A program made the translations under genes and the position numbers. Below, in pieces: positions 42,921 to 58,569 of a stretch of 64,000 nucleotides of DNA (the first letter of the stretch is position 1; each line of letters begins with the position of its first letter). The stretch comes from Nanohaloarchaea archaeon SW_7_43_1 (GTDB lineage: Archaea; Nanohalarchaeota; Nanosalinia; Nanosalinales; Nanosalinaceae), in contig PXPE01000001.1 of the NCBI GenBank assembly GCA_003009795.1, forward strand, positions 632,739 through 696,738, written 5' to 3'. The notes beneath the pieces were generated by a model. The model searched no databases and was not told the origin of the DNA. It saw nothing but the letters and a program-made list of their open reading frames with translations.

Positions 42921-43066
42921 TAACCTTGTTGGTTCCACTACCTATCAGCATCCTTGTTTGGGCTCATTCTCCTATCTGGCTTGTTGTTTTGTAGTAATTT
43001 CGGGTTAGTTTGATGTTTACCTATCGTGTGCTGGTGTTCATCATTTGAGATCCTTTAGGCCGGAGA

Positions 43067-55577: not shown

Positions 55578-55856
55578 TTATGCACTTGGTCCTTTGAAGT
55601 ATCCGTCTTCCTCATTCTCTGTATTCTGGAGTACCTCGTCTTTATCCAATGTTTCTTCGACTTCATCTTCACGAGTTTTCGGATCTGTTTCCACCGGATG
55701 GAAAGCAGGTTCAACGTCTTCAGTGTCTATTTTCTCTAGTTTTTGAAAAATCGAAATAATATTTTCAAACTCTTCTGCAAATTTCTCAGCCTCTCCTTCC
55801 TCCAAATTGATTCTGGCATTGTCCGCAATTTCCTCTACATCTTCAGGCTCAACCAT
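55578..55856 (-). CDS. gatC: Asp/Glu-tRNA amidotransferase subunit C
   Basis: A 92-residue GatC, the small clamp of the amidotransferase. DVEEIADNARINL (about 6-18) and FQKLEKIDTEDVEPAFHP (about 37-54) match the family. It is the first gene of a gatC-Nudix-Zn ribbon-small protein-gatA-gatB transcript. The promoter lies in the gap shared with the hairpin array (AATATTTAG about 55876-55884). Confidence 0.9.
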   Translation of the reverse strand: MVEPEDVEEIADNARINLEEGEAEKFAEEFENIISIFQKLEKIDTEDVEPAFHPVETDPKTREDEVEETLDKDEVLQNTENEEDGYFKGPSA

Positions 55857-55957
55857 GATACAATGATGGATCCATAATATTTAGTAACTGTTTGATGACA
55901 GCGTCTTTCCGGTCAATGAACTTTACGTGAACAGTTCAGAACAAAAGCTGTTCAAAA

Positions 55958-55971
55958 ACGATGAACATCGT
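55958..55971. promoter_or_regulatory. Palindrome upstream of the hairpin-array TATA box
   Basis: ACGATG (55958-55963) and CATCGT (55966-55971) form a perfect palindrome around AA, ending 22 bases before the TATA box at 55994. ATCGT recurs at about 55982-55986. GAACAG/CTGTTC arms (about 55929-55934/55948-55953) flank it. Possible activator or repressor sites in the gatC/ncRNA gap. Confidence 0.35.
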
Positions 55972-55993: not shown

Positions 55994-56001
55994 TTTTATA
56001 A
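55994..56001 (+). promoter_or_regulatory. TATA box for the hairpin-array RNA
   Basis: TTTTATAA (55994-56001), preceded by an A-rich stretch (CAAAG), is a strong archaeal TATA box. Transcription would begin near 56022-56026, just before the first hairpin. No ORF begins there, which suggests a non-coding transcript. Confidence 0.5.
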
Positions 56002-56021
56002 ATGACCTAATTGAATGTTTA

Positions 56022-56165
56022 GTTAAGCTTTGGTAATCTGTCCTTGGGCGGACGGTTCAAATGTGACAGATACGATCTAACTCGTTTGGGCACGAGTCTA
56101 TTCGGATTCAAGTTGGGCTTTGAATCCAAACATGAATTAAGTATTCAAGTTGGGCTTGAATTTGT
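56022..56165 (+). ncRNA. Candidate small RNA with four TTGGGC hexaloop hairpins
   Basis: Four consecutive hairpins share the loop TTGGGC. H1: CTGTCC/GGACGG (56038-56055). H2: ACTCGT/ACGAGT (56080-56097). H3: GGATTCAAG/TTTGAATCC (56104-56127). H4: ATTCAA/TTGAAT around G-TTGGGC (56143-56161). Stems H1, H2 and H3 are unrelated, while H3 and H4 share ATTCAAG, so selection seems to act on loop plus pairing. No ORF fits. ftsZ has a separate TATA box downstream, so the array is probably its own RNA. The strand is inferred from the TATA box at 55994. Confidence 0.65.
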
Positions 56166-56187
56166 TGATCTTCTAAGGTAGAATTAA

Positions 56188-56216
56188 CTATACCGCTTTA
56201 AAAAGGTTAGGTATAG
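56188..56216 (+). promoter_or_regulatory. ftsZ promoter within an inverted repeat
   Basis: CTATACC (56188-56194) and GGTATAG (56210-56216) are perfect arms around GCTTTAAAAAGGTTA. The TTTAAAAA at 56197-56204 is 32-39 bases before the ftsZ ATG, so it is the likely TATA box. A protein bound to the arms would cover it, suggesting cell-division control. Confidence 0.5.
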
Positions 56217-56235: not shown

Positions 56236-57300
56236 ATGGAATCCCTAATAGATAACAACGAGTCCGGAAAAGACGTCGAAAATCTTGATGATGTAAAAGA
56301 TGCTAGAATTGTAGTTGTAGGAGTCGGCGGAGCAGGAAATAACCAGGTAACCCGTATCCAGAAGAAGGATGTACAAGGTGCCGATACAGTGGCAATCAAC
56401 ACCGATAAACAGCACCTAGAAATGGCTTCAGCCAATCGGAAAATCCTCGTAGGAAAAGATCTGACAAAAGGCCTTGGAGCAGGAGGAAAACCCGAGAAAG
56501 GTGCAAGATCAGCTGAAGAGAACCGTGCCGAACTACGATCAATCTTCAAAGACGCAGACATGGTCTTCCTCACAGCAGGAATGGGGGGAGGAACAGGAAC
56601 AGGAGCAACACCGGTTCTTGCAGAAATCGCAAAGAAAGAAGACTGCATAGTAATAGGAACAGTGACAATGCCTTTCGAGATCGAGGGCGCAAGAATGAGT
56701 AAAGCAGAAGATGGCCTATACAGACTGAGACAACATGTAGATACCGCAATCGTAATTGAAAACGACAAACTACTAGATATAGCAGGCGACATGCCTCTAG
56801 ACCAGGCATTCGGAGTAGCAGACGAACTGATCACAACAATGATTAAAGGAGTAACAGAGACAATCTCCAAGCCTTCCCTGGTCAACCTGGACTACGCAGA
56901 TGTACAGGCAATCATGAACCAGGGAGGAGTAGCAGTAGTAGGATACGGGGAATCAGATACAAAGAACAAAGGAGAGGAAGCAATCCACGAAGCCCTCAGC
57001 AACCCGCTACTCGACGTAGAGTTCGAAGGAGCAAACGGAGCATTACTTCACGTAGCAGGAGGATCAGACCTCACCCTGAACGAGATCAATGACGTAGGAC
57101 AGAAAGTTAAACACCACCTAGACAGCCATGCACAGGTAATCTGGGGCGCACGAGTAAAGGAAGAGCTCCAAGGCAAACTCCAAGTCATCTCGATTATTAC
57201 GGGAGTCGAATCACCTTATGTCCTTGGTGAAGTGGAGGAAGAAACAGAGACAGAAGTCTCAGGAGATGTCAATGATCTGGGAATCGAAGTAATTGAATAA
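56236..57300 (+). CDS. ftsZ: Cell division protein FtsZ
   Basis: A 354-residue tubulin-family GTPase that forms the division ring. VVVGVGGAGNNQ (about 27-38) is the nucleotide-binding N-terminal loop, and AGMGGGTGTGATP (about 114-126) the tubulin signature. INTDKQHL, ADELITTMIKGVTETI and the T7-loop region NLDYADVQAIM (about 218-228) are intact. A short acidic C-terminal tail (EVEEETETEVSGDVND) ends in GIEVIE. The upstream region holds an inverted-repeat promoter and the hairpin array. Confidence 0.97.
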   Translation: MESLIDNNESGKDVENLDDVKDARIVVVGVGGAGNNQVTRIQKKDVQGADTVAINTDKQHLEMASANRKILVGKDLTKGLGAGGKPEKGARSAEENRAELRSIFKDADMVFLTAGMGGGTGTGATPVLAEIAKKEDCIVIGTVTMPFEIEGARMSKAEDGLYRLRQHVDTAIVIENDKLLDIAGDMPLDQAFGVADELITTMIKGVTETISKPSLVNLDYADVQAIMNQGGVAVVGYGESDTKNKGEEAIHEALSNPLLDVEFEGANGALLHVAGGSDLTLNEINDVGQKVKHHLDSHAQVIWGARVKEELQGKLQVISIITGVESPYVLGEVEEETETEVSGDVNDLGIEVIE

Positions 57301-57375: not shown

Positions 57376-57458
57376 TTAAGGCCTCCGCGTCCGGGTTTGA
57401 TGGGCAAAAAGCCTGTCAAACACCGTACACTCCCCTCCCCCCTATGCGGAGGTCTTAA
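57376..57458 (+). ncRNA. Candidate structured RNA after ftsZ
   Basis: An outer stem, TTAAGGCCTCCGC (57376-57388) with GCGGAGGTCTTAA (57446-57458), is 13 bp with one G-U. Inside, GTTTGATGGGC (57395-57405) pairs with GCCTGTCAAAC (57411-57421), 11 bp with two G-U pairs and loop AAAAA. A pyrimidine-rich strand (ACTCCCCTCCCCCC) is left unpaired. G-U pairs make more sense in RNA than in a DNA operator and favour the plus strand. No known RNA family recognised. Confidence 0.5.
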
Positions 57459-58062: not shown

Positions 58063-58569
58063 ATGAAGGCTCCAATATGTAACGTATGCTTAAAGAGTGA
58101 GGATGAGCTCTGCAGCATGTGTGAAGACAAGTTTGAAAACGGCAAAATCACTGAAACCGATATAAACGTTTCAAGGATTCTACACAACCTCAATAAGGAA
58201 CACGCATCCCTGAAGGATTCAGAGATCATTAAAACATTCGAGGCAGAAAACGTAGTTGTAATAGCGACAGGGAAAGGTGACGGGGCTAAAGTGGTTGGTC
58301 GGAGCGGAGAAATCGTCAAGAAAGTAGCAGATGAAGTAGGCAAATCAATCAGAGTAGTAGAGAAAAGCAACGAGGACCTGGAAACGATCAAAGGACTGCT
58401 AAGTCCGGCAGAAGTGGAATCAGTTAACACAGTATTCACGCCGAACGGACAGGAGAAAAAAATCGTTGTCAGCGACGAATACACGGGAAAGATCAACCTC
58501 TCCGAAGACGAGTTCGAAGAGATAATAGAGGGAATAACCGAAACACATTACCGGCTATCCTTCGAGTAA
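58063..58569 (+). CDS. Zinc finger-KH protein
   Basis: About 168 residues. An N-terminal four-Cys finger (CNVCLKSEDELCSMCEDK) is followed by a KH-type RNA-binding domain (about 60-115; VIATGKGDGAKVVGRSGEIV, containing a G-x-x-G-like loop) and a beta-rich end. Probably binds RNA, perhaps in ribosome assembly. The start is placed at the ATG at 58063, so that the zinc finger begins the protein; a frame starting at 58012 adds 17 residues and overlaps the preceding gene. Confidence 0.75.
   Translation: MKAPICNVCLKSEDELCSMCEDKFENGKITETDINVSRILHNLNKEHASLKDSEIIKTFEAENVVVIATGKGDGAKVVGRSGEIVKKVADEVGKSIRVVEKSNEDLETIKGLLSPAEVESVNTVFTPNGQEKKIVVSDEYTGKINLSEDEFEEIIEGITETHYRLSFE

Follow-up and report, generated by a model that had tools for sequence, protein, structure and literature searches.

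An array of tandem GG-loop hairpins upstream of ftsZ in Nanohalarchaeota resembles an RNA switch or docking platform for cell-division control that has not been described before

The region upstream of ftsZ in a Nanohalarchaeota genome assembled as a single contig of 956,550 bp carries a short hexamer, TTGGGC, four times on the plus strand (positions 56044, 56086, 56113 and 56150; span 56044-56155), each copy at the tip of a potential hairpin. The question raised by this locus is what such a series of hairpins, placed directly in front of ftsZ, might do. The analysis covered a window of 64,000 nucleotides, the whole stretch of DNA under study, to which all coordinates refer, together with the corresponding loci of other archaea. 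The features of the locus are listed below, with stem arms and loops separated by hyphens and energies given for each hairpin folded singly.

55578-55856, minus strand: gatC, divergent from ftsZ and forming the other border of the intergenic array region
55995-56002, plus strand: P1 TATA box, TTTATAAA, at an aligned position across the 19 family members
about 56022-56028, plus strand: predicted P1 transcription start, from the position of the P1 TATA box
56038-56055, plus strand: hairpin H1, CUGUCC-UUGGGC-GGACGG, -8.1 kcal/mol
56080-56097, plus strand: hairpin H2, ACUCGU-UUGGGC-ACGAGU, -6.2 kcal/mol
56104-56127, plus strand: hairpin H3, GGAUUCAAG-UUGGGC-UUUGAAUCC, -10.1 kcal/mol
56143-56161, plus strand: hairpin H4, AUUCAAG-UUGGG-CUUGAAU, -6.1 kcal/mol
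56171-56183, plus strand: TTCTA-N3-TAGAA element, 3' of the array and 5' of P2, conserved in the alignment of the 19 family members
56188-56194 and 56210-56216: inverted repeat CTATACC / GGTATAG, enclosing the P2 TATA box
56197-56204, plus strand: P2 TATA box of ftsZ, TTTAAAAA, 32-39 nt before the ftsZ start
56236-57300, plus strand: ftsZ (Pfam Tubulin, 2.8e-46; FtsZ_C, 7.2e-32)

The initial annotation described four hairpins with an identical TTGGGC hexaloop. All four form when folded singly and H1 to H3 present the hexaloop as described, but H4 comprises a 7-bp stem closed by a UUGGG pentaloop, in which the final C is paired, and the energy model even favours a UGG triloop. H4 resembles H3 in sequence. 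H2 is the most conserved hairpin across the family, H1 forms a clear hairpin in relatives, and the stem of H3 differs in sequence among relatives with its pairing kept. In the fold of the whole 144-nt stretch (z = -2.5), alternative pairings compete with H1 and H4, while the TTCTA-N3-TAGAA element further downstream folds weakly (-1.1 kcal/mol). The intergenic copies of TTGGGC at 42958 and 61704, described earlier as stemless, indeed have no stem.

Whether pairing is maintained as the stems change was assessed with an arm-swap test, in which the arms of each motif copy, unselected for pairing, were compared with arms swapped between copies. In Nanohalarchaeota the mean pairing of a copy with its own arms was 5.03, against 2.05 after swapping (sd 0.15, n = 93), and in 62 other loci the corresponding values were 3.68 and 1.82 (sd 0.09, n = 184); the latter loci contain 47 hairpins with stems of 6 bp or longer, distributed over 32 loci, where 1.9 were expected. 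Controls run on the same loci with the reverse-complement, reversed and other motifs remained near null (z from -1.4 to 2.5). An earlier version of the test gave the same outcome on loci chosen by eye, a choice that biases it. Shuffle and swap tests take no account of relatedness within genera, but the same arm-swap result was obtained with several loop variants, which argues that relatedness does not drive it. Among hairpins selected for pairing, the stem bases vary at every pair position with pairing held. Upstream of ftsZ2 in 20 relatives, none of the 24 motif copies lies in a 6-bp hairpin, compared with 46 of 116 at the ftsZ considered here, the one paralogue that the array precedes. Relatives that keep the sequence and lose the pairing were looked for, and the opposite was found, pairing being kept as the stems vary. 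Stems that vary yet pair around a conserved loop support the earlier suggestion that the loop may be recognised at the RNA level, and the related proposal of tandem binding sites is likewise supported.

A scan of named genomes yielded 80 ftsZ loci for comparison. Motifs of the YUGG type are found at the same place in all 26 Nanohalarchaeota ftsZ loci compared and upstream of ftsZ in about half of 62 other, mostly DPANN, loci, the latter set including one Nanohalarchaeota locus with UUGGCG loops (L058) that is not counted with the phylum. The 26 distinct Nanohalarchaeota loci carry UUGGGC-type motifs, replaced in some genera by UUGGGA, GGUGGGAC or CGGGCA. Many Aenigmatarchaeota and Woesearchaeota (as the records are titled) display the same design with UUGGCG, CUGGACA, UUGGAC or UUGGGG loops, and the variants UUGGGC, UUGGGA, UUGGCG, CUGGACA and UUGGGG are lineage-specific. 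The array is present before ftsZ in a genome of 0.6 Mb (G031) and absent from that position in the larger genomes sampled outside the phylum. Upstream neighbours, named by reading of translations (Pfam was used for the genes of the window), vary by lineage and include NUDIX/GatC, phosphodiesterase-like, hisS, glnA, DHH and RtcB genes; the array is linked to ftsZ throughout, although these neighbours change. Loci without clear YUGG hairpins have other repeats (UCUCGU) in some cases and none in others, and a few loops drift to UGCC. In three Aenigmatarchaeota loci (L079, L097 and L108), a repeated UCUCGU upstream of ftsZ takes the place of YUGG, mostly without clear stems.

The array is flanked by two TATA boxes. 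The dedicated box reported at 55994 corresponds to the P1 element at 55995-56002 and is kept in relatives: 48 of 60 loci, where shuffles predict 15.3, have a TATA-like element 20-75 nt ahead of the first motif, with a median distance to the first loop of 48 nt. At this distance, RNA synthesis is predicted to start just 5' of the first hairpin. The separate TATA box claimed for ftsZ is equally present as P2 and conserved, lying 15-79 nt before the called ftsZ start in 25 of the 26 phylum loci. From the two boxes, P1 probably drives transcription of the array, and ftsZ is probably able to start from P2 as well. In other DPANN loci a TATA-TTTCG element occurs in 32 of 64 cases (1.8 expected); together with the inverted repeat around P2, it resembles a conserved promoter or operator element. 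TGAAC-type motifs are repeated 5' of P1, at 55914-55967 (for example TGAACAGTT at 55928), as they are in relatives, and represent possible transcription-factor sites for P1. A short open reading frame from an ATG about 20 nt past the P1 TATA box was dismissed, its start lying upstream of the predicted transcription start.

Searches of known RNAs returned no counterpart, consistent with the earlier statement that no named RNA has this form. At the gathering score, Rfam 15 identified only tRNAs in the window and 16 related loci, and at E <= 10 the array region gave a single chance match, on the other strand and outside the array. No description of the array was found in the literature searched, a scope that leaves the 2017 Weinberg survey of 224 RNAs to one side.

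The explanation we prefer, and regard as evenly poised between right and wrong, is that the array belongs to a P1-started RNA whose loops dock an RNA-binding protein and which acts in cis to set ftsZ output. The stretch 56022-56165 would constitute the 5' part of this RNA, starting about 200 nt upstream of ftsZ and displaying two to five hairpins (four here) whose loops all carry one lineage-specific YUGG-type motif. Several copies of one RNA-binding protein would dock on the loops, in cis, on a P1 transcript that is either ended or decayed before P2 or read through into ftsZ, and the choice between these two fates would set the supply of ftsZ. Some observations count against this explanation: clear YUGG hairpins are missing from about half of the loci beyond the main Nanohalarchaeota set, mismatches inside the stems (counted below) do not favour RNA over DNA, and P2 lies directly ahead of ftsZ, so that much ftsZ mRNA may be without the array.

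The known archaeal regulator of ftsZ, CdrS, binds DNA and has been reported from every major group of archaea other than DPANN (PMC7439475). The array would similarly provide local control of an ftsZ gene, as in CdrS-ftsZ2; it differs in having the appearance of an RNA, with no protein gene directly upstream, where CdrS is a protein that binds DNA. We put forward as a tentative idea that division in DPANN at large may be controlled by an RNA-protein pair, the tandem YUGG-loop RNA and a predicted loop-binding protein, co-evolving and standing in for CdrS. Many DPANN archaea are tiny and host-dependent, and an RNA element fixed before ftsZ would give an entry point to their division control. Conservation in many DPANN lineages extends the finding far beyond the window. 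If the proposal is true, the array would serve as bait for pulling out the ftsZ regulator, and the loop variants would offer a natural series for testing how an RNA and its protein alter their recognition code in step.

An alternative that we judge unlikely is an independent RNA of about 150 nt that terminates before P2 and acts in trans, soaking up an RNA-binding protein in the manner of CsrB. CsrB/CsrC and RsmY/Z are bacterial RNAs that bind CsrA/RsmE through several hairpins per RNA that each expose a recurrent G-rich loop; their high-affinity sites typically have hexaloops, the loop being fixed and the stems free, and CsrB loops carry GGA, of which the E. coli RNA has 22 (PMC7652899). Like them, the array places a number of hairpins with a recurrent loop motif in a single predicted RNA. 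An own promoter (P1) apart from that of ftsZ (P2) is what such a sponge would have, as are multiple identical loops on one RNA, a trait of CsrB (PMC7652899). The UUGGGC loops of the window, in contrast, contain no GGA, which among relatives occurs only in lineages with UGGAC. CsrA (PF02599) was found in none of 100 archaeal relatives and is absent from this genome, the control being detected in E. coli, B. subtilis and T. maritima. The array thus stands outside the Csr family, and the absence of CsrA weighs against a sponge of that kind.

From a sponge one would also expect further targets or an occasional loss of linkage to ftsZ, and neither was seen. In this genome no UUGGGC hexaloop hairpin of at least 6 bp occurs outside the array, the next best having 5 bp with two G-U pairs. 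Other gene starts show no enrichment of TTGGGC (2 of 928, against a mean of 5.1 for permuted hexamers), and neither does intergenic DNA (29 copies including the four of the array, against an average of 27.6). Across 28 phylum genomes, a search for clusters of three TTGGGC copies gave overlapping matches in 16 genomes, all upstream of ftsZ except for one unrelated stretch (G019), and the reversed pattern used as control gave one match. The corresponding TTGGCG pattern was run on 297 archaeal genomes, where the matches listed look like unrelated, mostly coding repeats. The suggestion that the array might soak up a protein which also has targets elsewhere is therefore unsupported, since there is no second copy, no other target site of the motif was found and the array always lies beside ftsZ while its neighbours change. 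This tie to ftsZ and the lack of sibling sites would make docking in cis most likely, and this sequence evidence leads us to prefer an ftsZ element working in cis to a sponge that acts globally on a protein.

It is rather improbable that the loops pair with another RNA, as kissing or antisense partner, and not with a protein. Lineage-specific loops such as UUGGGC, UUGGCG and CUGGACA are what covarying partners would produce, and loops of six bases suit kissing pairs, but in the matching lineage neither ftsZ nor its leader or 3' UTR is enriched for the loop complement. Pairing of UGG with tRNA CCA, in the style of a T-box, was dismissed on sequence, as the following bases mismatch A73, the usual tRNA base next to CCA.

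A DNA operator array, with a transcription factor on repeated TTGGGC sites between P1 and P2, appears very improbable. A short motif repeated between two promoters and a P2 TATA box within an inverted repeat would fit an operator, and the stems show no G-U excess, the mismatch count (G-U 9 versus A-C 15) not favouring RNA over DNA. However, the motif is almost confined to the ftsZ sense strand (93 copies versus 1 in the phylum), and differing stems that still pair have no obvious role in DNA binding. As for chance, or a palindromic element copied locally without function, the sequence common to H3 and H4 shows that some copies arose by duplication, but the probability of this account is negligible because pairing is kept across loci with little shared sequence and across loop variants. 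In addition, among 1,497 windows of 280 nt drawn at random from this genome, not one contains four hairpins sharing a loop 4-mer, as the array does (11 contain three); the array is not a chance product.

Returning to the preferred protein-docking element, candidate partners were considered. Smaug recognition elements of eukaryotic mRNAs, which bind SAM domains, have a CNGGN0-3 loop carried by a stem of no particular sequence (PMC4053848), and the array resembles them, as it does CsrB, in presenting a constant GG loop on stems that are free to vary. Among relatives, the CUGGACA loops of Aenigmatarchaeota literally fit this consensus, whereas the UUGGGC loop of the window does not; a search for SAM domains (PF07647) gave none in 60 genomes, with the control silent as well. 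A NusA-like KH protein with a CxxC-type start (58063-58569, PF13184) is encoded two genes after ftsZ in family loci with enough flank. This protein is common across archaea, even where the array is lacking, and is linked to ftsZ in the family only; as a loop-binding partner it is a weak lead.

The 3' UTR of ftsZ presents features of its own. A hairpin with a C-rich loop lies 3' of the gene in relatives (57380-57454 here; also L089, L130, L136, L090, L082 and L129), and control of ftsZ translation by the 3' UTR is possible, as judged from complementarity. In several lineages the 3' UTR contains a stretch perfectly complementary to the Shine-Dalgarno region of ftsZ, reaching 12 nt in L089 (ACCCCTCCTTTT) and 12 in L130 and L136, and the mean longest complement is 7.1, against 6.6 after partner swaps (sd 0.13; maximum of 300 swaps, 6.99).
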